Below are positions 26,936 to 41,036 of a DNA stretch of 64,000 nucleotides, in pieces. The DNA is from Devosia psychrophila (GTDB lineage: Bacteria > Pseudomonadota > Alphaproteobacteria > Rhizobiales > Devosiaceae), in assembly GCF_000971275.1 (NCBI RefSeq), contig NZ_LAPV01000141.1:1-64000 (forward strand). Reading direction: 5' to 3'. Positions within the stretch are counted from its first letter, which is position 1. The number at the start of each line of letters is the position of its first letter. The notes beneath the pieces are model-generated. The model worked only from the letters and a program-made list of their open reading frames with translations, was not told where the DNA came from and made no database searches. The translations under genes and the position numbers were made by a program.

Positions 26936-27003
26936 CTTTGACCCGCAACAGCGGACATCTTCCTGAAGTGGTGGCTGCCTTTTTTTGAGGCTGGCGGCCT
27001 TGA

Positions 27004-27044
27004 CCGCTTGCTAGAAAAGCAAAAGCTGGCGAGATAGCAAGCGG
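27004..27044. promoter_or_regulatory. 10-bp inverted repeat upstream of the amino-acid ABC operon
   Basis: CCGCTTGCTA and TAGCAAGCGG are perfect reverse complements separated by 21 bases. The site lies between two divergent genes (the ABC ATPase and the YdcF-like gene), about 70 bases from each start. It could be a split operator or an RNA stem in a leader; no regulator gene lies next to it to decide. Confidence 0.4.
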
Positions 27045-27112
27045 AAATAACTCTTTTGGGCTATGTCGCACAGGATGTGACGATCTGACGAGCGATATCG
27101 GCACGCGATCGC

Positions 27113-27922
27113 GTGGAGTGGCAATTGTTCTACTTTCTGGCCAAGATTTTCTGGGTGGTCGTCCAACCGCTAAGCATGGTCACGCTTCTGGTGCTGGCGG
27201 GAATCGTCTTGCTAGCTTTGGGGCGGAAACGGCTTGGGCTCGCGGCCAATGGCGCGGCGCTATTCGTGTTGGTGCTGTGCGGATTCACGACGTTTGGTGC
27301 GCTGATCATCGGTCCGTTGGAGAACCGCTTTACGCGCCCGGTGACCATGCCATCCAGGGTGGACGCGATTATAGTGCTGGGCGGGGCTACGCTGGCGCGC
27401 GTCAGCACAGCGCGCGGCGTTGCCGAACTTAACGAAGCCGGTGATCGGCTGACCGAAGCCGTGGTGCTGGCCCGGCGTTATCCGGAAGCGCGGATTGTGT
27501 TTTCTGGTGGCGCAGGCATGCTTGACCCTGGCGAGGCGGAGGCTGCGACCGCGGAGCGGTTCTTTCTGGCGATGGGCATTGCCCCCGAGCGTATGGTGCT
27601 CGAAGACCAGTCCCGCAACACCGATGAGAATGCCGACCTGACGGCGTCACTGCTAGGCGATACGGGTGGCACTGCAATGTTGGTCACTTCCGCCTTTCAC
27701 ATGCCGCGCTCAGTGGGCCTGTTCCGCCGCGTTGGTCTCGACGTAGTGCCATGGCCAACCGATTATCGCAGCGCCGGTCAGGAGGGGTTCGGTATGGATT
27801 TCGCGAACCCGATAAATAGTCTCGATATCAGCAGCATCGCGCTGAAAGAATGGATCGGGCTTGCGGTTTATCACTGGACCGGACGGATTGATTCCATGCT
27901 GCCGGCTCAGATTTCGAACTGA
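27113..27922 (+). CDS. YdcF/SanA-family (DUF218) envelope protein
   Basis: A 269-residue membrane-anchored protein. Two hydrophobic segments lie at about residues 5-30 and 35-65; the periplasmic DUF218 domain follows with the core VDAIIVLGGAT, SGGAGM, LEDQSRNTDENA and TSAFHMPRS motifs. DUF218 proteins are linked to envelope or peptidoglycan functions and bind nucleotide-like ligands, without a settled activity. The start is GTG 27113; no good ribosome binding site was seen, so the exact N terminus is uncertain. The end overlaps the convergent kinase gene by 16 bases. Confidence 0.82.
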   Translation: MEWQLFYFLAKIFWVVVQPLSMVTLLVLAGIVLLALGRKRLGLAANGAALFVLVLCGFTTFGALIIGPLENRFTRPVTMPSRVDAIIVLGGATLARVSTARGVAELNEAGDRLTEAVVLARRYPEARIVFSGGAGMLDPGEAEAATAERFFLAMGIAPERMVLEDQSRNTDENADLTASLLGDTGGTAMLVTSAFHMPRSVGLFRRVGLDVVPWPTDYRSAGQEGFGMDFANPINSLDISSIALKEWIGLAVYHWTGRIDSMLPAQISN

Positions 27923-28881
27923 TCGGCCGGCACCACCAGGCGGTAGCGCACGCTGTCGGGCTCGATGAGAAACTGGGCACTGCCGCCAACCGACAGCGGC
28001 ACGATGCGTTCCAGCACTAAAGTACCGAAGTGCGGCTGTCGCAGCGCATCGCCACTTTCGATGCCAGCCTCCTGCCACTCGATCACCAGATCGGCTTCCT
28101 GCCCTGAATGATCGACCAGCGTGGCATCGACCCAGACGTGCCCCGGCGCATTGTCCGCCAAGGCGCCATGTAGCACGGCATTGGCGCCCAGTTCGTGAAT
28201 GGCCAAGCCGATGTGCAGGGAGGCGTTCGGCCCCAACAGCGGGTTTTCGCCAGTGATGCGCACTTGGGCCAGCCGGTTGGAGCCGACCCGGGTGAGCTGC
28301 GCCGTTATCAGCGTGTGGAGATAAGTGCCGCGCCAGTTACTCTCGGTGACGAGATCCTGCGTGCTCGACAGAGCGTGCAGCCGACCGCGAAACTTGTCGA
28401 GAAAGCCTTTGATTGTTGAGCTGTGATGAGCTGTCTGCATTGCGACGGACTGCACGATGGCGAGAAGGTTTTTCGAGCGGTGGCTGACTTCGCGCAGCAA
28501 GGCCGACATAGCCTGTTCGCGAGCTCGGCTTTCTGTGACGTCGGCTATGATACCCAGGACGCCGTCCACGTCAGGCTGCAGGCGCACCTCGAATACCCGT
28601 CGCCGGAGCCCTTCGCCAATATCGAAATGAAAATTCTGCTCGGCGCCACTGCGGCGCGCCTGCTCGGTGTTCGCGCGGTAGGTGCTGGCAATGTCGGGAG
28701 GGAAAGCGGCTGACTCGGCTAAGCCCAGTATGTCTTGCGGCCAGCTCTCGGGAAGGTTCTCGGCTAGATCGAAGTGGTAATGGCGATCCTGGTGCAGGAT
28801 GCAGATGCCTTGTTCGCGCAAACCAGCTGACAAGGCGCGCAACCTCATGTTCGACTGTTGATTGAGCGCTGGGGGCGGCAT
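27907..28881 (-). CDS. HWE-family sensor histidine kinase
   Basis: A 324-residue soluble kinase. A degenerate PAS-like region (about residues 10-118, ending GIIADVTESR) precedes the HWE dimerisation/phosphotransfer helix LLREVSHRSKNLLAIVQSV with the phosphoryl His at about residue 134. The ATP-binding domain has the N-box IHELGANAVLHGAL and GTLVLERIVPLSVGG. HWE kinases in Alphaproteobacteria commonly phosphorylate PhyR or single-domain response regulators, which fits the adjacent stress locus. There are no membrane segments. The only promoter-like site upstream is the sigma EcfG-type box about 260 bases away, giving a long leader. Confidence 0.9.
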   Translation of the reverse strand: MPPPALNQQSNMRLRALSAGLREQGICILHQDRHYHFDLAENLPESWPQDILGLAESAAFPPDIASTYRANTEQARRSGAEQNFHFDIGEGLRRRVFEVRLQPDVDGVLGIIADVTESRAREQAMSALLREVSHRSKNLLAIVQSVAMQTAHHSSTIKGFLDKFRGRLHALSSTQDLVTESNWRGTYLHTLITAQLTRVGSNRLAQVRITGENPLLGPNASLHIGLAIHELGANAVLHGALADNAPGHVWVDATLVDHSGQEADLVIEWQEAGIESGDALRQPHFGTLVLERIVPLSVGGSAQFLIEPDSVRYRLVVPADQFEI

Positions 28882-29051
28882 AGCGGGAACTCACAAATGT
28901 CGCCAGGCTGGACGGCTTCGCCTATGACGAAGCCACGATGCTATCCGGCTAGGAGAGAAAAATTTTCATGTGCGCCGGAAGAAACCGGCAAGTAGTGAAA
29001 TGACAACAAAGCCAGAAACAGGACAACGAGACCTGTGCAATATCAGCCGAG

Positions 29052-29103
29052 GCGCCTGTTATTCCATGACACTCCCGCTAGGAGAGTTATGAGGAACAGG
29101 CGC
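29052..29103 (-). ncRNA. Structured leader or candidate small RNA under a stress promoter
   Basis: GCGCCTGTT and AACAGGCGC close a long imperfect hairpin of 52 bases whose inner arms also pair (GGAG with CTCC and flanking bases). The 10-mer GCTAGGAGAG occurs both here (29077-29086) and at 28948-28957; on the transcribed minus strand it reads CUCUCCUAGC, a sequence complementary to Shine-Dalgarno regions. An exact stress promoter lies just upstream. The 28882-29143 stretch has no credible gene. It may be a 5' leader of the kinase gene or a separate transcript; no clear terminator was found between them. Confidence 0.4.
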
Positions 29104-29143
29104 TAGTAGAGCATGTCTCTCCCTCGTATAACGATGGATACGC

Positions 29144-29168
29144 AACGGGCCGCGAGGGTGCCAGTTCC
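29144..29168 (-). promoter_or_regulatory. Sigma EcfG-type promoter without an adjacent gene
   Basis: On the minus strand GGAAC (29168-29164), 16 bases, CGTT (29147-29144): an exact match to the EcfG consensus. The next minus-strand gene, the HWE kinase, starts 263 bases further on. The predicted transcript begins around 29137. Confidence 0.7.
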
Positions 29169-29183
29169 TGTAAGGCAAGAAAA

Positions 29184-29206
29184 AAGGCCGGGAAAACCCC
29201 GGCCTT
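29184..29206 (-). terminator. Intrinsic terminator of phyR
   Basis: AAGGCCGGG, loop, CCCGGCCTT: a 9-bp GC-rich stem followed on the minus strand by a T-run (TTTTTT with the stem end). It lies 28 bases after the phyR stop codon. Confidence 0.85.
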
Positions 29207-29233
29207 GTCGGCAGTTCGAATGCATTGGCGAAA

Positions 29234-30028
29234 TCAGGCAGCGGCGCGGGAGCCTTCGTCGAAGAACAACGCCTGGCTGATCAGCGCCTTTACCATGTCG
29301 GGGTTGAACGGCTTGGTTACGAGGAAAGTGGGCTCGGGACGCTCGCCGGTCAGCAGGCGTTCCGGGAACGCGGTGATGAAAATCACCGGCACCGAATGGT
29401 GGTTCAGGATGTCGTTTACCGCGTCGATGCCAGAGCTGCCATCGGCAAGTTGGATATCGGCCAGAATCATCCGTGGATTGGTCTGGTTAAACAGGTTGAC
29501 GGCTTCCTTGTGCGTCCGTGCAACGCTGACGACCTTATGGCCGAGGCTTTCCACAAGCTGCTCGATATCCATGGCGATCAGGGGCTCGTCTTCGATAATC
29601 ATGATCTCTGTCGCCACCTGACGCGAGATTTCAATCGACGCTTCATCGAGCAGGGAGGCGAATTCGCTATCGGACACCGATAGGATCTCAGCGGCCTGCG
29701 GATGGGTAAAACCTTCTACAGCAACAAGCAGGAACGCCTGGCGGGGGCGTGGCGCCAGATTGGCAAGATTGCTCGACGCCCGCTTCTCCCAAGCAAAGGT
29801 TGAAGTCGGCTCAGGGACTTTGACGGCCGAGGACGAGAACAGCGCTGAGAACAGCTTGTACAGCGCAATGCGATCGTTGGACGCTTCGGGGAACAGAGAA
29901 ATGTCCGCAATGAGGGCTTCCAAAGTGGCGGCCACATACGCGTCGCCAGATGTCTGCGACCCCGTGACGGCGCGCGAAAACCGCCGTAGATACGGCAGGT
30001 GCGGAGCAATCCGCGTGGACAAAGTCAT
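29234..30028 (-). CDS. phyR: Anti-anti-sigma response regulator PhyR
   Basis: A 264-residue PhyR. The N-terminal sigma-like domain (about residues 1-135: RFSRAVTGSQTSGDAYVAATL, then LAPRPRQAFLLVAVEGFTHPQAAEILSVS) mimics EcfG regions 2 and 4 and binds NepR. The C-terminal receiver has IEDEP at about 145, the phosphoacceptor Asp in ILADIQL (about D191), TAF and the conserved Lys in TKP (about K239). When phosphorylated PhyR sequesters NepR and frees EcfG. ATG 30028 is used; longer in-frame starts run into the promoter region. An exact EcfG promoter lies upstream, so phyR is in its own regulon. Divergent from nepR-ecfG, the classic arrangement. Confidence 0.97.
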   Translation of the reverse strand: MTLSTRIAPHLPYLRRFSRAVTGSQTSGDAYVAATLEALIADISLFPEASNDRIALYKLFSALFSSSAVKVPEPTSTFAWEKRASSNLANLAPRPRQAFLLVAVEGFTHPQAAEILSVSDSEFASLLDEASIEISRQVATEIMIIEDEPLIAMDIEQLVESLGHKVVSVARTHKEAVNLFNQTNPRMILADIQLADGSSGIDAVNDILNHHSVPVIFITAFPERLLTGERPEPTFLVTKPFNPDMVKALISQALFFDEGSRAAA

Positions 30029-30079
30029 TAGTCTGAACTCCCAGTGACGCTTAAGGCTCGTGATAGCACGAACCTCGGA

Positions 30080-30105
30080 AACGGTCGCTGGTGAAAGAAA
30101 GTTCC
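30080..30105 (-). promoter_or_regulatory. Sigma EcfG promoter of phyR
   Basis: Minus strand: GGAAC (30105-30101), 17 bases, CGTT (30083-30080), an exact consensus match. About 50 bases to the phyR start. Its -35 box is one arm of the palindrome 30101-30119. Confidence 0.88.
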
Positions 30106-30119
30106 TGACGGTCAGGAAC
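30101..30119. repeat. Perfect palindrome joining the two -35 boxes
   Basis: GTTCCTGAC, G, GTCAGGAAC: 9-bp arms with a single central base. The two ends are the back-to-back -35 boxes (GGAAC) of the divergent phyR and nepR promoters. Confidence 0.85.
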
Positions 30120-30139
30120 TTTTTTTGACAGTGTGCATT
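30115..30139 (+). promoter_or_regulatory. Sigma EcfG-type promoter of nepR-ecfG
   Basis: GGAAC (30115-30119), 16 bases, CATT (30136-30139), one mismatch from CGTT in the -10 box. It is 47 bases upstream of nepR. The weaker -10 may lower autoregulation of the sigma operon relative to phyR. Confidence 0.65.
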
Positions 30140-30185
30140 ATGTCCACGAATGTGGGCAATCTCAATTTCGACGGCAAATAGCGTC

Positions 30186-30404
30186 ATGAAGGACAAACTG
30201 GTGACCCAGCAACGTATGCGTACGCAGGCGGGGCGGGCGGAAGATGGGCTCGGTCCGAATACGGATATCGGCAATCGACTGCGCGCACTCTACGGAGCCG
30301 TGCAAGACGAAGGTGTGCCGGAGCAGTTGCTCGACCTGCTGGAAAAGCTGGATAGTGCCGAGCAGGCGCACAAATCCAAGAATTCCCCTCGTGATGGGGA
30401 GTAA
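30186..30404 (+). CDS. nepR: Anti-sigma factor NepR
   Basis: A 72-residue NepR. The conserved core NTDIGNRLRALYGAVQDEGVPEQLLDLLEKLD gives the two helices that clamp EcfG and, alternatively, the PhyR sigma-like domain. ATG 30186 gives a typical short N-terminal extension; the in-frame GTG at 30150 would add 12 residues and lies nearly on the predicted transcription start, so it is unlikely. Its end (GGGGAG) provides the ribosome binding site for ecfG, four bases downstream, giving equal, coupled production. Confidence 0.95.
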   Translation: MKDKLVTQQRMRTQAGRAEDGLGPNTDIGNRLRALYGAVQDEGVPEQLLDLLEKLDSAEQAHKSKNSPRDGE

Positions 30405-30408
30405 ACAC

Positions 30409-30963
30409 ATGAGTGGCGAACCCCCCACCTTCAAGCGCGAGATGCTTGCAACGCTTCCCAGCCTGCGCGCTTTTGCGGTCTCCCTGACCGGCAAGCACGA
30501 CAAGGCAGATGACTTGGTACAAGACACCGTCATGAAAGCCTGGGCTAAGCAGACCAGCTTCGAAATGGGTACCAATATCAAGGCGTGGCTTTTCACTATC
30601 CTGCGCAACGAATTCTACAGCCAGATGCGCAAGCGGGGCCGCGAGGTGCAGGACAGCGATGGCGCATTTACCGAGCGTCTTTCAGTGCATCCGGCCCAGT
30701 ATGGCTCGATGGATATGCAGGATTTCAAGAAGGCGCTGTCGCAACTGCCGGATGATCAGCGTGAAGCCGTCATCCTTATTGGAGCCTCCGGCTTTTCCTA
30801 TGAGGAAGCTGCGGCGATATGCGATTGTGCAGTCGGTACGATGAAGAGTCGCGTCAGCCGGGCACGCACTCGCCTTCAGGATATTCTCAAGATCACGGGT
30901 GAGGCTGACTATGGTCCCGACGCTGTTTCGGCCCAGGTGACCACGTCCAATCACAGCTTTTAG
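30409..30963 (+). CDS. ecfG: General stress response sigma factor EcfG
   Basis: A 184-residue ECF sigma factor of the EcfG class (ECF15). Region 2 spans about residues 15-85 (LRAFAVSLTGKHDKADDLVQDTVMKAWA, then KAWLFTILRNEFYSQMRKRGRE). Region 4 spans about 105-160 (LSQLPDDQREAVILIGASGFSYEEAAAICDCAVGTMKSRVSRAR). No C-terminal extension. ATG 30409 is placed seven bases after GGGGAG at the end of nepR; a longer in-frame start would lie inside nepR. It would recognise the GGAAC/CGTT boxes found around it. Its stop codon overlaps the convergent receiver gene. Confidence 0.96.
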   Translation: MSGEPPTFKREMLATLPSLRAFAVSLTGKHDKADDLVQDTVMKAWAKQTSFEMGTNIKAWLFTILRNEFYSQMRKRGREVQDSDGAFTERLSVHPAQYGSMDMQDFKKALSQLPDDQREAVILIGASGFSYEEAAAICDCAVGTMKSRVSRARTRLQDILKITGEADYGPDAVSAQVTTSNHSF

Positions 30964-31322
30964 GGATTAATGGCAAGCGCCCGTGCTATGGCGCTTGCCA
31001 TTGTCTCCTCTGGGATTGGTTTGACGAGGATCGGCACAGCGCTGGTTATGTTGCGCGATAGGCCGATATCGCCAGTGGTAATTACCAGCGGAACACCGGC
31101 GGCACTTAGTTCTGTTGGCAATTGCTGATTGTGGGAATGATCTAGTCTTAGCTCTATGATCGCTAATGCCAGATCAGGCCAATGCTGACGCAGTTGCCGG
31201 GCCTCGCTCGCATTACGCGCAAACAGGGTCTGCCCCACGCCGAGAGCCTCCAGCATCTGCTGAATGTCTAGAGCGATTAAAAATTCTTCCTCGACAATGA
31301 GGACTGGACTACCTCTGAGCAT
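30960..31322 (-). CDS. Receiver-domain protein with Glu at the phosphoacceptor site
   Basis: A 120-residue stand-alone receiver domain. The acidic cluster VEEEFL (E11-E13), ITTGD (T82/T83) and the conserved Lys in VKPIP (K101) are present, but the phosphoacceptor region reads LAIIELRL, placing Glu57 where PhyR has Asp (ILADIQL). Glu at this site often mimics phosphorylation, so the protein could be locked in an on-like state or work without a kinase. ATG 31322 follows GGGAAG; ATG 31379 would add 19 residues without a visible ribosome binding site. It is convergent with ecfG (four-base overlap), next to three HWE-type kinases. Confidence 0.82.
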   Translation of the reverse strand: MLRGSPVLIVEEEFLIALDIQQMLEALGVGQTLFARNASEARQLRQHWPDLALAIIELRLDHSHNQQLPTELSAAGVPLVITTGDIGLSRNITSAVPILVKPIPEETMASAIARALAINP

Positions 31323-31397
31323 GGTTCTTCCCGAGCGCGTTGTTAAGTCCCTGATGGACCCGGTGGCCGAAGTTGTCATTTAAGTTTGACATGTGCG

Positions 31398-31422
31398 GGA
31401 ACGGCGGCGAAACCACTGCGTT
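31398..31422 (+). promoter_or_regulatory. Sigma EcfG promoter of the Crp/Fnr gene
   Basis: GGAAC (31398-31402), 16 bases, CGTT (31419-31422), exact. It lies about 36 bases before the TTG start of the Crp/Fnr gene and could also drive the kinase and lipid kinase genes downstream, which follow with small gaps. Confidence 0.82.
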
Positions 31423-31457
31423 TGGCTGTTGCCTGTTTTAGCGTCTTATGGTGATCC

Positions 31458-32213
31458 TTGAGCCTTGTGCTGCCAAGTTCTGGACGAAGGGTGCCATGCG
31501 AGCAGTGTCCTCTGCGGGCCATGCCGAGCTTCAGGGCCTTTGAAAGCCAGGAACTTCGATTTGTTTCGTCGTTCAAAACAGGCGAGCTGGTGGCCGAGAC
31601 CGGTACAACGCTTCTGGCAGAAGGCAATAACAGCGTACACCTCTATACGCTGCTGTCAGGCTGGGCCTTTCGCTACAAGACGTTGCCGGATGGACGTCGT
31701 CAAATTCTCAATTACATGCTGCCCGGCGATCTTGTCGGCCTCCAGGGCTCCATAATTGGCGAGATGCAACACTCGGTTGAGGCTTTGTCTCCCTTGGTCC
31801 TTTGCGTGTTCCAGCGAAATCGGCTGACTGAACTTTTCAGTAACCATCCAGGGCTGGCCTTCGACATTACCTGGCTGGCAGCTCAGGAAGAGCGGATGCT
31901 TGACGACCATCTATTGAGCCTTGGGCGGCGCAATGCCGTCGAACGGGCTGCCTATCTCATTGCGTTTCTCTACCAGCGAGCAGCGTCCGTTGGGCTTAGT
32001 GGGGCAAACGCTCTGTATCTGCCGATCACGCAAATGCATGTAGCCGACACGCTGGGCCTGTCGATCGTCCATACAAACAAGACATTGCGTAAACTGGCAG
32101 ATCGAAAACTCATTCGCTGGCTAGATCGCTCCTGCGAGGTCCTCGATGTCGAGGGGCTGATGCAGGCCGCGGAGTGGGAAGGCCCGTTGGAGCGGAAGCG
32201 GCCTTTGATATGA
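31458..32213 (+). CDS. Crp/Fnr-family transcriptional regulator
   Basis: A 251-residue regulator. Near the N terminus CEQCPLR gives a CxxC pair typical of rhizobial Fnr-like proteins, but a full iron-sulfur cysteine set is not seen. The cyclic-nucleotide-binding-like beta roll spans about residues 30-150 (LYTLLSGWAFRYKTLPDGRRQILNYMLPGDLVGLQG). A C-terminal winged helix (about 160-235) has LPITQMHVADTLGLSIVHTNKTLRKL as recognition region. Start codon choice is uncertain: TTG 31458 is used, GTG 31467 is possible, and no strong ribosome binding site was seen. The exact EcfG promoter upstream puts it in the stress regulon. Confidence 0.88.
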   Translation: MSLVLPSSGRRVPCEQCPLRAMPSFRAFESQELRFVSSFKTGELVAETGTTLLAEGNNSVHLYTLLSGWAFRYKTLPDGRRQILNYMLPGDLVGLQGSIIGEMQHSVEALSPLVLCVFQRNRLTELFSNHPGLAFDITWLAAQEERMLDDHLLSLGRRNAVERAAYLIAFLYQRAASVGLSGANALYLPITQMHVADTLGLSIVHTNKTLRKLADRKLIRWLDRSCEVLDVEGLMQAAEWEGPLERKRPLI

Positions 32214-32289
32214 TTGGGTGCCGGGCCTCAAATATGCCATTGCGCACAGGCAGACCGGACCCGTGTGGTGAAACGCGGCCCGCATCTGG

Positions 32290-33708
32290 ATGACGACGAT
32301 GAACATTATGGATGGGATCGGCAGGCTAAAGGGGATGACACAGGCCGAGTGGCGCGTGGCGCACAATGCCGCAGTGCTGATGTCCTTGGGCCTAGTGCTG
32401 CTGGCAGCCGTGGCGGCGCTGATCCTGGTGCAGGGCATCGACCGGCAGATCGGCGACGTCCTGCATACCTATGACGTACGAAATCAGGCGCGCGAACTCA
32501 CGATCACCCTGACCGGCGCCGAGAGCGCCCAACGCGGCTACGTGCTGACGCGCGACGATAGCTACCTCGAAGACTACCATCAGTCGTCATCCTCAATCGG
32601 CACCCGATTGCTTGCTTTGACTGGTCTTACCACGGATGACCCGCTGCAGGCCGCGCGTATCCGCGCTATCGCTGTGGAAACCGTCGACAAGTCGGACGAG
32701 ATGGAGCGCAGTGTAAAACTGGTGCAGGACGATCGAACGGCAGACGCGCGCCGACTTATTGCAGCCGGCGTCGGCGAACGGCTGATGGGTAGCCTGCAGG
32801 TTGCGCTCCAGCAGTTCATCGACGAGGAAAACGCTAAGCTTTTCGATCGCAACGAGCAAATTGATCAATCCCGGCGCTGGTTGGTGGGCGCAATCATCAC
32901 GGCTTTGGCGAGCGCGGTAATTCTCGCCTACGCGCTGTTTGCGCGGACGCAGAGGCAAGTCAGCGCACTGGTACTCAGCAAGGACCAACTGCACAGCGAA
33001 AACGAGATGCTGGAGGCTCATGTGATCGAACGCACGCAGGCGTTGGACGAGGCCCGAATTCACGCTGAGCAAGAGCGACAGCGTGTCGAGGCGTTGCTGC
33101 AGGATGCCAGTCACCGCATCGGCAATTCCCTCGCAACAGTATCGTCACTGCTCGGGCTGCAATTGCTCCGAACCAAGTCGGAGGAAGTGCGCGTGGCGCT
33201 TGAATCGGCACGGTCGCGGGTTCACGCGGTTGCCTCCGCGCACCGCCGGCTCAGGCTTGGTCACGACCTCGAAACCGCAAGTGCAGATGAGTTTTTAGAG
33301 GCCGTGTTGGAAGATATCGCCAAGACTGCCGGCGACCCCACAGCGGTCAACATTACGGGCGAATTCGATCCGATAGTGGTCGGCGCGCGCGATGCCACGA
33401 CGATCGGCATCCTGGCGGCCGAACTGGTTACCAATGCGCTCAAGCACGGTTTTCCCGATGGCCGCGCCGGCGCAATCGCGGTCTCACTCAAGCCCGATCC
33501 CAACGGCGTGCCGGTGCTCAGAGTCGTCGATGACGGCGTTGGACCGCCAGACGGGCAATCACTGGGCGAGGGCGGTCTTGGGTCGGTCATTATTGCCCAA
33601 CTGGCCAACCAGTTCGGGGGCGCCCCGTACTATGAGCGACGGCCTGAAGGCGGCCTGAGTGTCAGCGTACCTATGCCGAACATCGAAACCGTTTCAACCG
33701 CCAGCTGA
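32290..33708 (+). CDS. CHASE3-HisKA_2 sensor histidine kinase
   Basis: A 472-residue membrane kinase. A first TM helix (about residues 28-49) and second TM helix (about 197-219) flank a CHASE3-like periplasmic domain (TLTGAESAQRGYVLTRDDSYLEDY). A coiled-coil segment (about 225-270) leads to the HisKA_2 helix LLQDASHRIGNSLATVSSL (phosphoryl His about 275). The ATP-binding domain has AAELVTNALKHGF, VVDDGVG and GLGSVIIAQL. CHASE3 domains sense unknown signals across the membrane. It follows the Crp/Fnr gene by 76 bases without a visible promoter of its own. Confidence 0.9.
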   Translation: MTTMNIMDGIGRLKGMTQAEWRVAHNAAVLMSLGLVLLAAVAALILVQGIDRQIGDVLHTYDVRNQARELTITLTGAESAQRGYVLTRDDSYLEDYHQSSSSIGTRLLALTGLTTDDPLQAARIRAIAVETVDKSDEMERSVKLVQDDRTADARRLIAAGVGERLMGSLQVALQQFIDEENAKLFDRNEQIDQSRRWLVGAIITALASAVILAYALFARTQRQVSALVLSKDQLHSENEMLEAHVIERTQALDEARIHAEQERQRVEALLQDASHRIGNSLATVSSLLGLQLLRTKSEEVRVALESARSRVHAVASAHRRLRLGHDLETASADEFLEAVLEDIAKTAGDPTAVNITGEFDPIVVGARDATTIGILAAELVTNALKHGFPDGRAGAIAVSLKPDPNGVPVLRVVDDGVGPPDGQSLGEGGLGSVIIAQLANQFGGAPYYERRPEGGLSVSVPMPNIETVSTAS

Positions 33709-33730
33709 CACTAAACATCGAGGGGCACGA

Positions 33731-34639
33731 ATGCGCTTCATTGCGATACTGAATAGCGATGGTGGCACGCTGCGAACCATGGACCTGGGCGGGTTCTGCG
33801 TCACGGCGCGCGGGATATTTGAGCGGCACGGGCACGAACTCGATTGCCGAATTGTTGCTGGCAGCGACGTGGGAACCGCTCTGCGCAAGGCCGCGCAGGA
33901 GGAGGGCGTGCATGCGGTGTTAGCCGGCGGCGGGGACGGCACCATCTCGACCGCCGCAGGTATTTCGTTTGAGACGGGGAGACCGTTGGCAGTGTTGCCG
34001 GCCGGCACGATGAACCTCTTTGCGCGGGCGCTGAAGGTGCCGCTGGAATTAACGGAAGCACTTGAGCGAATTGCCGACGGCGGGGTTAACGCCGTAGATA
34101 TTGCAACTGCAAACCAGCGGACATTCGTGCATCAGTTCAGCGTGGGCATCCATGCGCGGCTGGTCCGCATTCGCGAGAACATGACCTATGGCAGCCGGAT
34201 CGGCAAAATGCTGGCAAGTTTGCGTGCCATCGGGGCCGCTGCACTCAATCCGCCCCAGTTCGAGGCGGAACTGCACACTAGCAATGGAATCGAGCGGAGG
34301 CGGGTCTCGGGCATCACCATTTCCAACAATCCATTGGGCGATCGACAAATTCATGCCGACGGCCTGCATGCGGGCATTCTCGGCGTCTATGTCGCCGCTC
34401 CGCTTTCGACGACGGCCCTGCTGAGGCTGGCCATAGATGTTCTCCTCGGTAGCTGGCGCGACAGTCCGATGGTTTCGGAGGAGGAGGTAGCGGAAGTTAC
34501 CCTACATTTTCCAAAGCGAAAGCACGGCGCACAGGCGGTGATCGACGGCGAGTTGATCAACCTCGATCGTTCGGTTGTGCTGAAGGTGCATCCGGGCGGC
34601 TTGAAGGTCGTGCTGCCAAAAAGCTCGGAGAATGCATAG
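33731..34639 (+). CDS. Diacylglycerol/lipid kinase family protein
   Basis: A 302-residue protein of the DAGK-catalytic family. The nucleotide site AVLAGGGDGTISTAAG lies at about residues 60-75, the PAGTMNLFARAL motif near 90-105, and a C-terminal beta-sandwich with AVIDGELINLDRS. Members phosphorylate diacylglycerol, sphingoid or related lipids; the substrate is not determinable. ATG 33731 is used, with GAGGGG nine bases upstream. It follows the CHASE3 kinase by 22 bases, so the two are probably co-transcribed, suggesting an envelope-lipid response in the stress island. Confidence 0.87.
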   Translation: MRFIAILNSDGGTLRTMDLGGFCVTARGIFERHGHELDCRIVAGSDVGTALRKAAQEEGVHAVLAGGGDGTISTAAGISFETGRPLAVLPAGTMNLFARALKVPLELTEALERIADGGVNAVDIATANQRTFVHQFSVGIHARLVRIRENMTYGSRIGKMLASLRAIGAAALNPPQFEAELHTSNGIERRRVSGITISNNPLGDRQIHADGLHAGILGVYVAAPLSTTALLRLAIDVLLGSWRDSPMVSEEEVAEVTLHFPKRKHGAQAVIDGELINLDRSVVLKVHPGGLKVVLPKSSENA

Positions 34640-34652
34640 AGATAGAATTTTT

Positions 34653-34677
34653 GGAACCGAATATAACCTCTGGCGTT
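34653..34677 (+). promoter_or_regulatory. Sigma EcfG promoter of the GAF-PAS-HWE kinase
   Basis: GGAAC (34653-34657), 16 bases, CGTT (34674-34677), exact match; 58 bases to the kinase start codon. Confidence 0.85.
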
Positions 34678-34735
34678 AGACACAACCAGTCGGCAGGTTG
34701 AATGCCGCCCGTGCAGTGTAGCGTTAGGACCAGAA

Positions 34736-36256
34736 GTGAGCGATTCAGGCCTTCCCCTTCCAGCAGATGTGCGGAAGGTTTTGGACGATCCGGCGCGGCT
34801 GGCGGCTATTGCTGCACTTGAGACCCTGGACAGCGGGCCCGATGCCGACTTCGACCGCCTTGGTCGCATCGCTGCCCATATATTCGGCTCAGAAGTATCC
34901 TTGATATCGTTGGTCGGTAACGATCGGCAGTGGTTCCGCGCCCGCTACGGCGTAGATATGACTGAAACCGCTACCGACATGTCCTTCTGCGCATATACTC
35001 TGGCTTTAGAAAGCGATGATGACACCCTGGTGGTGCTCGATGCGGAGAAGGATTCCCGCTTCTTTAACCACGCCTTTGTAACGGGTTGGCCGCATATCCG
35101 CTTTTATGCTGGTGCCAGTATCAAGGTTGCCGGACAAAAGGTCGGGTCCGTCTGCGTCATCGATACCAAGCCTCGAGCAGCGCTTACGAATGAGGCGCGC
35201 GAACAATTGATCGATCTGGCGGCGCTAGCCTCCAGTCTGTTCGAACTGAAGAATGAAGCCCGAGTGAGAGCACGCACGGCGGCGGCTTTGCTACGGGAAG
35301 AGTGGCGCCACGCCCTGACGCTGGAAGCAGGCAAGGTTGGCAGCTGGGTCTGGGATGTCCAAACCGGCGAGGTAACCTGCAACGACATGTTCCGTCGCAT
35401 GTACGACCTGCCAGAGGTAGACACGATCCGTATCGCCGACGTGTTGGCAGCAACCCATGAGAGTGATCGCTCTACAGTGCAGGCGGGCATTGATGCCAGC
35501 TTTAGCGATGGCGTCGATTTCAGTACCGAGACGCGAGCGGCCAATACCGGGCGTTGGCTGACCATGCGCGGCCGGGTTTATCAGCGCGATGCCGACGGAA
35601 AGGCGCTGGTGATGATGGGCGCCAGTATCGACATTTCGGAGAGCAAACAGACGGCGGAGCATACCCGGCTGCTGTTGCGCGAGCTCAATCACCGGGTGAA
35701 AAATACTCTGGCGATGATCCAGTCAGTGGCCCGCCAAACCATCCGGCAAAACCCGGATCCGAAAGACTTCATCGAGGCTTTTTCGGGCAGGTTGCGCACG
35801 ATTTCAGATGCACATGTACTGCTGGCCGATCGAGATTGGACTGGCGTGCAACTGTTCGAAGTAATTGGCTCGCAACTCGGACCCCAGTTCCGTACCACGC
35901 CAGACCGGGCCGAGGTTAGCGGCGATGATGTCATGCTGCCGGCCGATCATGCAGTAGGTCTTGGCCTGATCTTGCACGAGCTGACCACCAACGCGCATCG
36001 ATTCGGCGCTTGGTCGAGCGATCGGGGCATCGTAAACATTGACTGGGAAATCAGGGACACCCCCGTGCGTGGCTTGTCGCTGACCTGGCGCGAAAAAGGC
36101 GGCCCACTGGTGCAAAAGCCGGATGAGTATGGATTGGGAACGCGCCTGATCCAGCGTAGCCTCGCGAAGGTGTTGGATAGCGAAGTGCAGCTCAATTTCG
36201 AGCCGGATGGCGTGGTGGCGAGTGTGTGGATGCCGTTACCGGCGGAACAGATTTAA
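34736..36256 (+). CDS. GAF-PAS-HWE sensor histidine kinase
   Basis: A 506-residue soluble kinase. An N-terminal GAF domain (about residues 25-170: DFDRLGRIAAHIFGSEVSLISLV, SFCAYTL) is followed by a PAS domain (about 195-305: LEAGKVGSWVWDVQTGEVTCNDMFRRMY, ending MGASIDISESK). The HWE helix LLLRELNHRVKNTLAMIQSV has the phosphoryl His at about 319. The kinase ATP domain contains LILHELTTNAHRFGAWS and GLGTRLIQRSL. GTG 34736 has AGGA upstream. The GAF-PAS input suggests a small-molecule or redox signal, as in HWE kinases that feed PhyR. An exact EcfG promoter precedes it, forming a potential positive loop. Confidence 0.93.
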   Translation: MSDSGLPLPADVRKVLDDPARLAAIAALETLDSGPDADFDRLGRIAAHIFGSEVSLISLVGNDRQWFRARYGVDMTETATDMSFCAYTLALESDDDTLVVLDAEKDSRFFNHAFVTGWPHIRFYAGASIKVAGQKVGSVCVIDTKPRAALTNEAREQLIDLAALASSLFELKNEARVRARTAAALLREEWRHALTLEAGKVGSWVWDVQTGEVTCNDMFRRMYDLPEVDTIRIADVLAATHESDRSTVQAGIDASFSDGVDFSTETRAANTGRWLTMRGRVYQRDADGKALVMMGASIDISESKQTAEHTRLLLRELNHRVKNTLAMIQSVARQTIRQNPDPKDFIEAFSGRLRTISDAHVLLADRDWTGVQLFEVIGSQLGPQFRTTPDRAEVSGDDVMLPADHAVGLGLILHELTTNAHRFGAWSSDRGIVNIDWEIRDTPVRGLSLTWREKGGPLVQKPDEYGLGTRLIQRSLAKVLDSEVQLNFEPDGVVASVWMPLPAEQI

Positions 36257-36278
36257 GGCCGCCTTTCGGCGGCCTTTT
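36255..36278 (+). terminator. Intrinsic terminator after the GAF-PAS-HWE kinase
   Basis: AAGGCCGCC, loop TTTC, GGCGGCCTT, then TT. It overlaps the kinase stop codon region and sits just before the end of the convergent membrane-protein gene, so it may serve both strands. Confidence 0.85.
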
Positions 36279-36280
36279 CG

Positions 36281-36718
36281 CTATTGTTCGGTCTTGTCGC
36301 TGCCACCACGGACCAGCAGGAAAGCAGCCAAGGCCGCCGCCGGAATACCCAGCGTTCGCAGCAGTGGAGACCTGAGCAGCACGGGCAGCGCGGTAATTGC
36401 TGCCGTCGTCACGAAAGCGCTGGTCTCGCTGGACCTACGCTTTTCAGCAACTTCTCGCTTGTGCCGCCCCTTGCCGATCAGGCTGCCAAGATAGACGGCC
36501 AGCGCTAGCACAAGAAACCCAGCGGCAAAGATCAACGCAGCATAAATGACCCCAAGCACATCGGATAATGCGAAAAAGCCCGCTGCGACGAGGAAAAACG
36601 CTCCAACCGCTGCGAAAGCAACGATCACCGCATTGAGGATTACGGCATTGCGCACCCGCTCGGTTATTGAGTCGAACTCAATGCCGAGCAGGGCTGCTAA
36701 TGGAACCAGAAGGTTCAT
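36281..36718 (-). CDS. Phage-holin-like membrane protein
   Basis: A 145-residue inner-membrane protein with hydrophobic segments at about residues 27-52, 57-80 and a shorter one at 120-135. A basic cluster (KGRHKREVAEKRR) lies in a cytoplasmic loop. The first half resembles the YqjE/DUF1469 holin-superfamily-like proteins that accompany YqjD/ElaB-type proteins, consistent with the neighbour upstream by five bases. No function is established. It should be co-transcribed from the stress promoter at 37114-37138. Confidence 0.7.
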   Translation of the reverse strand: MNLLVPLAALLGIEFDSITERVRNAVILNAVIVAFAAVGAFFLVAAGFFALSDVLGVIYAALIFAAGFLVLALAVYLGSLIGKGRHKREVAEKRRSSETSAFVTTAAITALPVLLRSPLLRTLGIPAAALAAFLLVRGGSDKTEQ

Positions 36719-36723
36719 GGCAC

Positions 36724-37086
36724 TTAGTGTCGCGACAGAAGGGCGAGTACGAAGCCGATGCCGATTGCGCTGGCGACCGCCGTCAGAGGCTTTTCCCTGA
36801 TGGTGGCCTTGAGCTGCTGCTCGATGTCGCTGGCCTTTTCTTGTACGTCTTCTACGACGTGCTCGGCCTGCCGCTGCAAGTGACTGGCCTCGCTCTTGGC
36901 AACAGCCTTGACCTCGTTGACCTTGTCATTGCTCAAGCGGGCCAGGGTTGCGGCGATGGCCTTGAGATCGCTCTGCAGCTGGGAAACTTGATCTTCGAGC
37001 TGGGCCTCGCGAACCTTGGCGCTCGCCCGGCTTGCGCGGGCAGCAGCTGGTTTACGTTCTGGTGCCAGATCGGAAGTGGTTGCCAT
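36724..37086 (-). CDS. YqjD/ElaB-like (DUF883-type) membrane-anchored protein
   Basis: A 120-residue protein with a long predicted coiled coil (about residues 25-90, LEDQVSQLQSDLKAIAATLARL onward) and a C-terminal hydrophobic anchor (PLTAVASAIGIGFVLALLS) after the KP motif, the layout of DUF883/ElaB/YqjD proteins, which in E. coli anchor ribosomes or respond to stationary phase. AGGAG lies six bases before ATG 37086. The exact EcfG promoter 28 bases upstream is a strong argument for stress control. Confidence 0.85.
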   Translation of the reverse strand: MATTSDLAPERKPAAARASRASAKVREAQLEDQVSQLQSDLKAIAATLARLSNDKVNEVKAVAKSEASHLQRQAEHVVEDVQEKASDIEQQLKATIREKPLTAVASAIGIGFVLALLSRH

Positions 37087-37113
37087 GTGACGCTCCTGTT
37101 GTTGTAGGGATGG

Positions 37114-37138
37114 AACGCCCTGAAAACCAAGGGGTTCC
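37114..37138 (-). promoter_or_regulatory. Sigma EcfG promoter of the YqjD-like gene
   Basis: Minus strand: GGAAC (37138-37134), 16 bases, CGTT (37117-37114), exact. Distance to the start codon is 27 bases. Confidence 0.85.
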
Positions 37139-37284
37139 GTTCGCGGAAAAGAAGACACCCCAATGCACACGAAGCGCATCGGGGTGGCAAGGGGCGGGTG
37201 AAAGGGGGGCGACTTTCGACCCGCGGGCGCTTCTCATGAAGTGAGAACCAGAGACTGGCTGCGCCTGTTTTATTTACTGGGTAT

Positions 37285-37443
37285 CTAGATGCGTCCCATC
37301 AAGACGAGGATTAGGATAATCACCAGAACAACACCTAGGATTCCGGAAGGACCGTAGCCGAAGCCGCGCGAATAGCCCCAACTGGGTAGAGCGCCGACTA
37401 GCAGAAGAATGAGAACGATAACGAGAATTGTACCCAAGCCCAT
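37285..37443 (-). CDS. DUF3309 small membrane protein
   Basis: A 52-residue protein almost entirely composed of two hydrophobic segments: an opening ILVIVLILLLVGALP, a central SWGYSRGFGYGPSG turn, and a closing VVLVIILILVLMGRI. This is the DUF3309 pattern, widespread in Alphaproteobacteria and usually annotated as hypothetical. AGGAGA lies six bases before the ATG. It follows the other tiny gene by about 40 bases and probably shares its EcfG promoter. Confidence 0.85.
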   Translation of the reverse strand: MGLGTILVIVLILLLVGALPSWGYSRGFGYGPSGILGVVLVIILILVLMGRI

Positions 37444-37482
37444 GGTAGCTCTCCTATTGTTTTTGTGACGCTTTGAAGGTTT

Positions 37483-37647
37483 CTAGAGAACAGCGAGTAG
37501 AAGTCCGGCGACAATTGTCAGGATCAAGAAAGCAGGGGCAAGAGCCTTGAACATGGTGCTGTAATGGGTTTCCTCATCATAGCCTTCGGTCCATACCATG
37601 GTGTCACGACCCGCATTCTCTAGTGCCTTGATCTCCATGGTGCTCAT
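37483..37647 (-). CDS. Small membrane protein in the stress regulon
   Basis: A 54-residue protein: an acidic/polar N-terminal half (EIKALENAGRDTMVWTEGYDEE) and a C-terminal hydrophobic segment (FLILTIVAGLLLAVL) that should anchor it in the membrane. No family was recognised. Two in-frame ATGs exist, 37653 and 37647; 37647 is chosen because GGAGGAG then lies six bases upstream, whereas 37653 directly abuts the site. An exact EcfG promoter lies about 40 bases upstream. Confidence 0.7.
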   Translation of the reverse strand: MSTMEIKALENAGRDTMVWTEGYDEETHYSTMFKALAPAFLILTIVAGLLLAVL

Positions 37648-37686
37648 AACCATCTCCTCCCCCGCAAATATTGCGCGTGGCCGAGT

Positions 37687-37712
37687 AACGGGGGGCGATC
37701 AATATTGGTTCC
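37687..37712 (-). promoter_or_regulatory. Sigma EcfG promoter of the small membrane-protein genes
   Basis: Minus strand: GGAAC (37712-37708), 17 bases, CGTT (37690-37687), exact. It is squeezed between the end of the transglutaminase operon (37741) and the small gene. Confidence 0.82.
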
Positions 37713-37740
37713 GCGAGCCGATTGAATCAGATCGATGGAG

Positions 37741-38628
37741 CTACTCGACCCGAATTACGTCTACCGACTGGGTGGTTTCGTGCGAGCCGTGCGTCTTGAG
37801 CACGCCGACGATGGGCGATATGTCGGCATAGTCGCGACCATGCCCGATTGAGATATGATCGGGTCCAGCAATCATCGCGTTGGTCGGGTCGAATTCGATC
37901 CAGCCGACATGCTGGCCGCACCAAGCGCGGACCCAGGCATGCATGGCATCGGCGCCTTCAAGCCGCGGCTTACCCGCGGGAGGCGTAGTGCGCAGGAAGC
38001 CCGATACGTATCCGGCCGGAATGCCGATGCCGCGGAGCCCTGCGATCATCACGTGAGCAAAATCCTGGCAGACCCCCTTGCGCAAGGCAAAAGCCTCGGC
38101 CGGCTTGGTCTCGACATCGGTGGCCTTGGAGTCATAGGCAAAATCGCGATGGATGGCCATGCAGAGTGCGGTTGCCGCCGCCATGACCGAGGGCGTTCCG
38201 GCGGTGACATCTTCCCCGTATTGGGTGATTGCCGCCACCAGTCGCACGCGCGGCGAAGAGGAGAGGAAATGATGCGGGCTATCGGGCTCGACCGACCAGT
38301 GGCGCGATATTTCCTGGCGCAGGACCTCGCGGGATGGCGACAGGTCGGCCGGTGGAATGTTGTCTTCTACCTGGACGCGCGCGGTCAGGCGAATATCGAG
38401 ATGGTCATGCGGCATCACATAGGTAAGCGTGGTGACCGAGTTGCCGAAGAAATCGGTAAAGGTGCTTTCGCGCTGCGGGCGTGGCTCAAAGGAAAGACCG
38501 GAGGCTACGACGCGCTGTACGCCAGGCACGCTGATCGGCGCCACGCGAATGAGGTGGCGGCCGCCATGCACGGTAGCATCGTAGTCATAGTGCAGCGCGA
38601 GGCGTACATCATAGAGCATGGTCGTCAC
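37741..38628 (-). CDS. Transglutaminase-like cysteine protein
   Basis: A 295-residue protein with the N-terminal bacterial transglutaminase beta domain (LALHYDYDATVHGGRHLIRVAP) and a C-terminal transglutaminase core carrying the Cys-His-Asp triad: GVCQDFAHVM, MHAWVRAWC and IEFDPTNAM. In bacteria this fold often acts as a protease or peptide ligase rather than a crosslinker. The GTG start at 38628 overlaps the stop codon of the ATP-grasp gene (GTGA), so translation is coupled. It is the last gene of a three-gene operon. Confidence 0.92.
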   Translation of the reverse strand: MTTMLYDVRLALHYDYDATVHGGRHLIRVAPISVPGVQRVVASGLSFEPRPQRESTFTDFFGNSVTTLTYVMPHDHLDIRLTARVQVEDNIPPADLSPSREVLRQEISRHWSVEPDSPHHFLSSSPRVRLVAAITQYGEDVTAGTPSVMAAATALCMAIHRDFAYDSKATDVETKPAEAFALRKGVCQDFAHVMIAGLRGIGIPAGYVSGFLRTTPPAGKPRLEGADAMHAWVRAWCGQHVGWIEFDPTNAMIAGPDHISIGHGRDYADISPIVGVLKTHGSHETTQSVDVIRVE

Positions 38629-41036
38629 ACGAAGTAGGCCGCGGCAACGAGGCTGGCCAGCATGCCGATGTCGGCGGCCATTTTGTCGAGACGTTGGGGG
38701 GTCATGTCGGCCGGATCGGCGATCCGCAAGTCGGTCTCGATCTGCAAGGCGGCCTTGGCGGCTGATGAGAGTTGTCCGTCATCGATGCCCCCCGGAAGCA
38801 TCTCGATCTGCGCACGTAGTTCGGCTATCTGGAACAGCACCGAGCGCGGATTGAGGGGGTCGAGCGCCAGCAGGTCGATGGCGCTTTGCGTGCCGGCGCT
38901 CACCGAATAACGGCGCCGGTGCGACATGACGCTATCGCCAATTTCGAGCAGCATTTCGAGCGAGCCGTCCGGTGCGTCCTTGCCGGTCAGGTGGCTCAGA
39001 ATCCGGGCAATCTGGATGGCGCGCTCAAGGCGACGACCGAGTTCGAGAAACCGCCAGCCGGCAAAGCGATACATGTTTTCATGCACGAGGCCGGAAAAGC
39101 CGGCCAGTTTGCGCAGCAGCACGGTCATCGAGCGGGTGGCGTCGTCGCCCGACCGCACCTTGGTCGCAAAACGCTGGGCGGTCTTTTGCAGGTCGTTTAG
39201 CGCCAGCCAGCCATCGGGCGAAAAGCGGTCGCGGATCTGGCCGGCGCTGTGCACGGCGCTGTCGATGGAGGCGAGCAGGCCCTGCGGCATGGGCTCACTG
39301 GCATCGACATCGATGCTGTCGAGGAACGCCGCGCAGTGCGTGAGAATGGGCAGGTCGGCTTTGCTGAGCTCTGCCAGGCGGGCGTTGTAGGCGCGCAGGA
39401 TGCGAACCGTCGCCTCGCAGCGTTCGGCGTAACGCCCGAGCCAGATCAGGTTATCGGCGGCGCGGCTGGGCAGGCTTCCCGGTGCATTGCGCACCAGCTT
39501 CTGGCCATCCTGCGGCAGCAGCGAGACGCGCTCGACCGGCTTGGATGACAGCACCCAGACGTCTGCCGCCTGACCGCCGCGCTGCATGGCGATGGCGCTG
39601 GTATCCTGGCTGGAGCCGACGCGGGCAAAGCCGCCGGGCATGATAGTCCAGCCCTGGGCGGTGCGCGCAGCATAAACGCGCAGCGTGATGGGGCGCGGCT
39701 GCAGCTTGCCATCGACATAGACCGGCGCAGTGGACAGGCGCACCGGCTCTTGGCCGACATAGTCGGCGCCACTGGCCCGAATGCGGTCGAGCAAGGCGGC
39801 TTTCTGGTCGGACGGAATAGACGAGCCCAGCGCCGTGCCGCGCAAATCATCGAATGGCAGGCTGGTCGAAAAGGCCGGGCCGATCAGCAGGTTATCGAAG
39901 TTATCGAGCACATGTTTTTGCTCGCCAGCCTGGCCGCACCACCACGTGGCGATTTCCGGCAGCAGTAGTTTGCCCCCAAGCAATTTCTGGGCAAGGCGCG
40001 GCATGAAGGCGGCAAGGGCACGGGTTTCGAGGATGCCGGTGCCGAGCGCGTTAATCATCGAGATCGAGCCGTGACGCAGTGCTTCGACCATGCCGGGCGT
40101 CCCGATGCGACTATCGTAACGCAGTTCGAGCGGATCGACGAAGCTGGCATCGACACGACGCCACAGCACGCTGACCGGTTTGGGACCAGCGACGGTACGC
40201 ACCATGACCTTGCCGTCTTCGACGATCAGGTCTTCGCCCTCAAGCAGCATCAGGCCAAGATAACGGGCAATATAGGCGTGTTCAAAATAGGTTTCGTTGA
40301 GCTGGCCGGGCGTCAAAATGCCGACGCGGCCGCCATCGCGCTTGGCGTCATCGAACAGCTTATCGCGGAAATCGCGGAAGAAACCGGCGAGGCGCTGGAC
40401 GTTCATGTCCGAGTAGATATCGCTGAGCGCACGCGTGGTAGCGACGCGGTTTTCCAGCGCGAAGCCGGCGCCGGAGGGGGCTTGGGCACGGTCGCCCAGT
40501 ACCCACCAGGCGCCATCGGGGCCGCGGCCCAGTTCGAAAGCGCAAAAATGCAAATAATGGCCGCTAACGGGTTTGACGCCAACCAGCGGACGCAGGAATT
40601 CGCCGTTGCGCGCGACGAGTTCGGGGGGCAGCAGGCCCTGCTGAACCAGTGTATTGTCGCCGTAAATATCGGCGATCACGGTTTCGAGCAGCTCGGACCG
40701 TTGAACCAGCCCGGCGCTGATGCGGGACCAGTCGGCCTCTTCGATCAGCAGCGGCACATGGGCAAGTGGCCAGGCCCGCTCCTTGCCTTCAGCGCCGTCA
40801 TATTTGCGGTAGAACACACCGGCATCGCGCAGGTACTGGTCGGCCCGCTCGAAGCGGGCTGCCAGTTCGGCTGGGCCGAGCTTGTCGAATGCGGCCATGA
40901 GCTGAGACCAGCCCGGGCGGATGTTCCCGTCCGGGTCGATCATCTCATCGGGGACACCAGGCTGCAGCCGGTAGTCAGCAATAATGCTGGGGCCGGCCGG
41001 AGGCTTGCCGCGAGACTTTTGATTCCGCATTTCCAT
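38625..41036 (-). CDS. Circularly permuted ATP-grasp / alpha-E fusion protein
   Basis: An 803-residue fusion. The N-terminal circularly permuted ATP-grasp (DUF404/407 type, about residues 60-480) includes the segment AYIARYLGLMLLEGEDLIVEDGKVMVRT and the NALGTGILETRAL motif. The C-terminal alpha-E domain (DUF403, about 490-800) is a helical bundle with the opening NLIWLGRYAERCEATVRILRAYN. In many genomes these are separate neighbouring proteins. Such ATP-grasp proteins are predicted amide ligases that may build or attach peptides, but no substrate is known. Coupled to both flanking transglutaminase genes (three-base gap upstream, overlap downstream). Confidence 0.93.
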   Translation of the reverse strand: MEMRNQKSRGKPPAGPSIIADYRLQPGVPDEMIDPDGNIRPGWSQLMAAFDKLGPAELAARFERADQYLRDAGVFYRKYDGAEGKERAWPLAHVPLLIEEADWSRISAGLVQRSELLETVIADIYGDNTLVQQGLLPPELVARNGEFLRPLVGVKPVSGHYLHFCAFELGRGPDGAWWVLGDRAQAPSGAGFALENRVATTRALSDIYSDMNVQRLAGFFRDFRDKLFDDAKRDGGRVGILTPGQLNETYFEHAYIARYLGLMLLEGEDLIVEDGKVMVRTVAGPKPVSVLWRRVDASFVDPLELRYDSRIGTPGMVEALRHGSISMINALGTGILETRALAAFMPRLAQKLLGGKLLLPEIATWWCGQAGEQKHVLDNFDNLLIGPAFSTSLPFDDLRGTALGSSIPSDQKAALLDRIRASGADYVGQEPVRLSTAPVYVDGKLQPRPITLRVYAARTAQGWTIMPGGFARVGSSQDTSAIAMQRGGQAADVWVLSSKPVERVSLLPQDGQKLVRNAPGSLPSRAADNLIWLGRYAERCEATVRILRAYNARLAELSKADLPILTHCAAFLDSIDVDASEPMPQGLLASIDSAVHSAGQIRDRFSPDGWLALNDLQKTAQRFATKVRSGDDATRSMTVLLRKLAGFSGLVHENMYRFAGWRFLELGRRLERAIQIARILSHLTGKDAPDGSLEMLLEIGDSVMSHRRRYSVSAGTQSAIDLLALDPLNPRSVLFQIAELRAQIEMLPGGIDDGQLSSAAKAALQIETDLRIADPADMTPQRLDKMAADIGMLASLVAAAYFV

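Follow-up and report, generated by a model that had tools for sequence, protein, structure and literature searches.

An EcfG-type promoter cluster at the phyR–nepR–ecfG locus

The DNA analyzed here, a 64-kb stretch of Devosia psychrophila (contig NZ_LAPV01000141.1, positions 1–64,000; "the window"), carries an island of genes around phyR, nepR, and ecfG that is very probably the core general stress response locus of a Devosia species, driven by the sigma factor EcfG according to the scheme proposed below. EcfG–RNA polymerase uses GGAAC-N16/17-CGTT promoters in this family elsewhere, and we scanned the window for this motif. All six exact sites listed by an earlier sequence-only reading are present at the positions and on the strands given there. 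They are the sole exact matches in the window, with all six falling inside 8.6 kb.

The local clustering of these sites exceeds chance. Dinucleotide shuffles of the window contained 0.85 exact sites on average and 4 at most, and none of 100 shuffles reached six. For the 8.57 kb (8,569 bases) that hold the cluster, the expectation is 0.13 sites versus the six observed. The genome as a whole (4.52 Mb in 239 contigs) contains 67 exact matches; when 67 sites were placed uniformly at random, none of 20,000 trials put six of them into a stretch of 8,569 bases, so the clustering is not a product of chance.

The promoters are kept before orthologous genes

The nearest named relatives of the window belong to Devosia, with EcfG identities of 99% (L031) and 98% (L032). 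We compared the window with 63 related loci (L031–L093), whose EcfG proteins are 82–99% identical to that of the window and most, but not all, of which are Devosia; we refer to them as Devosiaceae. For each orthologue, 300 nucleotides (nt) of upstream DNA were read, and all gapped words of five plus four letters were ranked. Orthologues on the wrong strand, with less than 38% identity, or with too little upstream DNA were left out, as were those with under half coverage, except for nepR, rr, and sm56.

GGAAC-CGTT is the first-ranked gapped word before phyR, crp, the GAF-HWE kinase gene (gafhk), the DUF883 gene, and the 56-residue protein gene (sm56) alike. An exact site precedes phyR in 51/60 relatives, crp in 22/46, gafhk in 15/27, the DUF883 gene in 45/54, and sm56 in 36/39, and ten control words gave only 0–4 matches per set before the same five genes. 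No exact site was found in relatives before the neighboring genes tgl (0/45), alphaE (0/30), and mem145, which encodes a 145-residue protein (0/51), or before the receiver-like gene (0/25). The CHASE3 kinase gene has its own exact site in 1 of 50 relatives, and the diacylglycerol kinase-like gene in 10 of 52, although not in the window. This comparative evidence upholds the assignment of the sites as EcfG-type promoters and supports as likely direct targets crp/fnr, the genes for the GAF-HWE kinase and the YqjD-like (DUF883) protein, and those for the small membrane proteins, as the sequence-only reading had proposed. Its description of the island as largely self-regulated is fair for the operons; it does not extend to the receiver-like, CHASE3 kinase, and diacylglycerol kinase genes, which lack a site of their own. 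The latter two could only be co-transcribed.

A search 15–110 nt before the start with one mismatch allowed raised the count to 23/27 for gafhk (8 of the 12 without an exact site were gained) and to 28/46 for crp (6 gained). The −35 box is GCAAC in 11 of these 14 additional sites, including 7 of the 8 for gafhk. Six control words gave 0–2 exact and 0–2 one-mismatch matches on the two sets. GCAAC and GGAAC are the two commonest −35 boxes of the Sphingopyxis regulon (PMC7083833; this and the other papers cited are represented here by excerpts).

The window and the 63 loci together hold 275 exact sites, 249 of which precede an island gene or a DUF1328 gene. By the starts of the following open reading frames, the remaining 26 comprise 9 before a CsbD-like frame, 8 before a second small conserved frame, 3 before a diverged gene resembling that for the 56-residue protein, and a last 6 that include the window's own site at 29144.

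We also examined 17 more distant loci (L094–L110), mostly from Phyllobacterium. There an exact site precedes gafhk in 12/12 and the DUF883 gene in 3/5, and the phyR −10 box is mostly TGTT (12/16). In 10 of the 17, exact sites on the (−) and (+) strands start 31 nt apart before a GAF-kinase-like gene, forming a second back-to-back promoter pair.

Several results weigh against the assignment of the island as an EcfG-driven core locus. The crp site is exact in under half of the relatives, so that control of crp by EcfG is not universal. Among the distant loci, exact sites are scarce before phyR (4/17) and before crp (1/12). The raw genome-wide count is not above chance either, given an expectation of ∼60 sites (window shuffles scaled up) and 105 places for the reversed motif; the bare count is therefore uninformative. 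A genome-wide count had been suggested with the sequence-only reading as a check on density, and only the density of the local cluster, not the raw count, proved to be above chance. That the count lies so near the shuffled expectation would suit a reading of the cluster as a frequent word that happens to recur here, but this reading is refuted by the random placements and by the retention of the sites before orthologous genes, where control words are nearly absent, and we consider it extremely improbable.

The nepR–ecfG promoter carries a CATT −10 box

The site upstream of nepR–ecfG had been described as a one-mismatch copy of the consensus. The site is present, but its CATT is no random deviation. 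GGAAC-CATT is the top word before nepR–ecfG in 51/62 relatives, and GGAAC-CGTT is present in none. Over 61 related loci, the −10 box is CATT in 51 (with one extra spacer nucleotide in 6), AATT in 7, and another sequence in 3, and TTTT follows the −35 box in 52. By these counts, CATT is the usual form in relatives and not a decayed CGTT. The promoters of phyR and nepR form a back-to-back pair whose −35 boxes face each other (GTTCC-N7..10-GGAAC) in 61/63 loci.

A strict back-to-back promoter pattern was also sought in 397 genomes of the order; matches were found by pattern, with their place at phyR/nepR unchecked, and at least 116 genomes matched. The matches listed include six of 12 genomes from the window's genus, all six with CATT, and six genomes of a sister genus in the same family (g4), which carry CGTT; other families vary. 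CATT as an order-wide rule was rejected on these grounds, and the distribution points to CATT on nepR–ecfG as a lineage trait. An overlapping housekeeping promoter, with TTGACA in the window's nepR spacer, was likewise rejected, as it is present in only 1/60 relatives (L031).

A change from CGTT to CATT lowered in vitro transcription at one Sphingopyxis promoter (PMC7083833), and by analogy the nepR–ecfG promoter is probably weaker than the CGTT promoters of the island. Two points count against this estimate: it is taken from another genus, and in Sphingopyxis certain promoters that depart from the consensus outperform promoters that match it (PMC7083833).

A promoter that may have passed from a decayed gene to hk1

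The sequence-only reading had correctly located the site at 29144–29168 and had given it no target. The position 3′ of phyR was readable in 58 of 64 loci (L044, L055, L065, L072, L087, and L093 were excluded). With or without the histidine kinase gene hk1, an exact site is found there in 51/58, the window included. An intact DUF1328-like open reading frame of 54–65 codons, with length and a sequence motif as the criteria of intactness, follows right after the site in 44/58. In the window, the corresponding stretch (28966–29114) is a relic: the start codons are correct, but the reading frame is broken by an in-frame stop at codon 4 and by frameshifts, so that pieces lie in all three frames, and the length is 149 nt versus 165 nt in L032. 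PF07043 has no match at E ≤ 0.001 in the window genome; it is present in 67/75 genomes of the genus (the window's own genome among the 75) and in 64/68 of the good ones. From these remains, the promoter is best understood as that of a former DUF1328-like gene, now decayed in this genome.

Because the DUF1328-like gene is a frameshifted relic here, the promoter leads into hk1, the first intact gene downstream, which it most likely now serves by read-through across the relic. Among the 14 loci without an intact DUF1328 gene, the site is kept in 5/5 with hk1 versus 2/9 without hk1 (Fisher p 0.02). The five are the window, L031, L068, L069, and L071, and they represent about four separate losses on a FastTree tree of phyR–ecfG (support values uninspected). 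In L031, the DUF1328 stretch is gone altogether, and the site stands 38 nt before the hk1 start. We tentatively propose that in about four related lineages the EcfG promoter outlived its DUF1328-like gene, stayed perfect, and passed to hk1, formerly the second gene behind it.

This proposal has its own difficulties. The contrast between loci with and without hk1 ignores shared ancestry, and the joint loss of the site and both genes may be a single deletion. The hk1 leader would be ∼256 nt long and would cross a dead gene. In addition, the site survives in L085 and L088, two exceptions that lack both DUF1328 and hk1. The sequences just downstream of these two sites (L085:8675 and L088:8693, both on the (−) strand) are similar, and an open reading frame ∼195 nt past the site resembles an ABC transporter ATPase, as judged by eye.

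Two other explanations of the site must be weighed against passage to hk1. The site could be a functionless leftover, with hk1 transcribed from a promoter of its own. Indeed, the gene of the promoter is dead, the hk1 start lies 263 nt away, and only 1/20 hk1 relatives has an exact site 15–110 nt before its start; yet the site is exact in every locus that lacks an intact DUF1328 gene and has hk1, across some four separate losses, and in L031 it directly approaches hk1. We regard a leftover as rather unlikely. Far less likely still is that the site drives a GsrN/ReC64-type small RNA next to phyR instead of a protein gene. Such RNAs share with this locus an EcfG site near phyR: the EcfG-dependent ReC64 lies downstream of phyR–tcrY in Rhizobium etli (PMC3892343), putative GsrN homologues are found near core genes in other Alphaproteobacteria (PMC5869019), and the window itself has no intact open reading frame in the stretch after the site. 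The sites of these RNAs differ from this one, which in most related loci lies before a DUF1328-like protein gene, and DUF1328-like remains occupy three frames in the window. Of five Rfam matches in 26500–39000, none reached the gathering score. The small RNA, first suggested by loci that keep the site without hk1, was dropped on the evidence of the downstream open reading frames, the alignment, and Rfam.

Proposed regulation of the island

In the proposed scheme, stress-sensing HWE/HisKA_2 kinases would bring about PhyR phosphorylation, and phosphorylated PhyR would pull NepR off EcfG. EcfG thus freed would act with RNA polymerase at the GGAAC-N16/17-CGTT promoters, most likely driving phyR, crp/fnr, the GAF-HWE kinase gene, the DUF883 gene together with that of the 145-residue protein, and the gene of the 56-residue protein together with the DUF3309 gene. 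It would also drive nepR–ecfG, from the probably weaker CATT promoter, and the transcript from 29144–29168 would most likely run through the relic into hk1. Transcription of hk1, the GAF-HWE kinase gene, and phyR would close positive loops from the sigma factor through kinase and PhyR back to the sigma factor, and NepR, encoded in the same operon as EcfG, would restrain them.

A second tier of regulation through the Crp/Fnr protein, as raised in the sequence-only reading, is plausible by analogy with Sphingomonas melonis Fr1, in which a Crp-like gene (#0072) is EcfG-dependent (PMC6599016). It is not the sole candidate, as a gene for an RpoH-type sigma factor elsewhere in the genome (L123, contig C192) also lies behind an exact EcfG site and is another possible second-tier regulator.

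Gene content of the locus

The coordinates of the predicted promoters and genes are given in Table 1. The product of 31458–32213 is placed in the Crp/Fnr superfamily by its PF00027 and PF13545 matches; it scored 91 bits against the FnrL model and 81 bits against the FixK model, both with a cut-off of 300. The CHASE3 kinase scored 82 bits against the PhyK model (cut-off 750). Translation of nepR probably begins with the ATG at 30186 rather than at 30150, judging from the position of the promoter and from the later start of matches in many relatives.

The receiver-like gene is far less conserved than its neighbors. In 40/40 orthologues, the window included, the column of the PhyR phospho-Asp is never Asp and is instead occupied by Ile, Val, Leu, or Phe, with the Lys and Thr/Ser columns kept. 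In all ten rows inspected, an acidic residue stands two positions past this column, so the alignment may be slightly shifted. The protein is likely a phosphorylation-dead receiver beside the stress switch.

Table 1. Predicted promoters and genes of the island, with window coordinates
Feature	Position	Strand	Evidence or remark
hk1, HWE histidine kinase	27907..28881	(−)	PF07536 6.3e-23; weak PAS match PF08448 (PAS_4) below cut-off
Relic of DUF1328-like small membrane protein gene	28966..29114	(−)	Three-frame reading and alignment with L032
EcfG-type promoter, GGAAC-N16-CGTT	29144..29168	(−)	Exact motif match; 3′ of phyR, upstream of hk1
phyR, anti-anti-sigma response regulator	29234..30028	(−)	PF22029, PF22233, PF00072
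EcfG promoter of phyR, N17	30080..30105	(−)	Exact motif match
EcfG-type promoter of nepR–ecfG, GGAAC-N16-CATT	30115..30139	(+)	Site read in sequence; top dyad in 51/62 relatives
nepR, anti-sigma factor	30150..30404	(+)	PF18557 1.6e-13
ecfG, ECF sigma factor	30409..30963	(+)	PF04542, PF08281
Receiver-like gene, without phospho-Asp	30960..31379	(−)	Lacks its own exact EcfG site
EcfG promoter of crp/fnr	31398..31422	(+)	Exact motif match
Crp/Fnr-family regulator	31458..32213	(+)	PF00027, PF13545
CHASE3-HisKA_2 kinase, perhaps transcribed by read-through from crp	32290..33708	(+)	PF05227, PF07568
Diacylglycerol kinase-like gene	33731..34639	(+)	PF00781
EcfG promoter of GAF-HWE kinase	34653..34677	(+)	Exact motif match
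GAF-HWE histidine kinase	34736..36256	(+)	PF01590, PF07536; weak PAS match PF08447 (PAS_3) below cut-off
mem145, membrane protein gene (145 residues), downstream of DUF883 gene	36281..36718	(−)	No Pfam match
DUF883 (YqjD-like) gene	36724..37086	(−)	PF19029 1.3e-5, below curated cut-off
EcfG promoter of DUF883 gene	37114..37138	(−)	Exact motif match
DUF3309 small membrane protein gene	37285..37443	(−)	PF11752 8.3e-22
sm56, membrane protein gene (56 residues)	37483..37653	(−)	No Pfam match; conserved
EcfG promoter of sm56, probably of DUF3309 gene too	37687..37712	(−)	Exact motif match

Other EcfG-type sites in the genome

The 61 exact sites elsewhere in the genome were scored for codon usage, with 13 genes of the window as the training set, and the first 30 of the 105 places of the reversed motif served as control. 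A coding signal was lacking at 54/61 sites versus 10/30 control places, and 29/61 sites versus 3/30 control places lie 12–100 nt before a good open reading frame. By position, this suggests that many of the 61 are real promoters. Stop-to-stop frame length was rejected as a test of intergenic location: it placed only 8/61 sites between genes, it had no control, and spurious long frames seemed common. The two tests disagree strongly, and we relied on the controlled codon score.

The sites yielded 44 candidate downstream open reading frames, 39 of which were scanned with Pfam, and 33 of these matched a family at E ≤ 0.001. The families include those of typical stress genes (two Ku proteins, LigD, Mn-catalase, CsbD, and the RpoH-type sigma factor) as well as DUF892 and PRC-barrel. 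A TreY-like gene also lies behind a site; it is truncated where the stretch ends, and its match falls below the cut-off. On contig C80 of the same genome (L029, L030), a 2.7-kb stretch holds three exact EcfG sites, which lie upstream of two Ku genes and a YidB-like gene, and the LigD gene (L122) also stands behind an EcfG site. The end-joining repair set (Ku, LigD) thus looks to be under EcfG control.

Relation to known systems

The locus is a real, conserved, and densely packed example, in Devosia, of the PhyR–NepR–EcfG kind known from S. melonis Fr1, Sphingopyxis granuli TFA, and R. etli. It resembles these systems in the placement of phyR near nepR–ecfG, in the GGAAC-N16/17-CGTT motif, and in the presence of HWE/HisKA_2 kinases, of which the island encodes three. 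PhyR combines sigma-like and receiver domains, NepR is encoded beside an ECF sigma factor, and the core promoters follow the motif at phyR, with CATT instead of CGTT at nepR–ecfG. The targets are alike as well: Ku, trehalose synthesis, and PRC-barrel proteins belong to the S. melonis Fr1 regulon, in which a hybrid histidine kinase gene (#1746) is also EcfG-dependent (PMC6599016). Unlike these systems, the window packs six exact sites into 8.6 kb, has CATT where the Sphingopyxis nepR2 promoter has CGTT (PMC7083833), and has lost its DUF1328 client to decay.

A client of this kind also exists in another general stress system: Salmonella YtjA (DUF1328) is listed among small sigma-S-controlled genes (PMC5437024). 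The relic in the window genome is accompanied by no other copy at E ≤ 0.001. In the literature collection searched, no paper joined Devosia with EcfG, and the two that join Devosia with PhyR are on other subjects, to judge by their titles. The passages on these systems contained no DUF1328 relic with a surviving promoter and no CATT on nepR–ecfG across relatives, although no search was aimed at the latter.

Implications

The analysis maps the general stress response of Devosia at the level of promoters. It raises two questions: whether a low level of autoregulation is set by the CATT −10 box in front of the sigma factor's own operon, and whether a kinase gene can take over the promoter of a dead client and thereby alter feedback. 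If the tentative proposal for hk1 is true, the promoter of a membrane protein client would have become a feedback arm of the stress switch.

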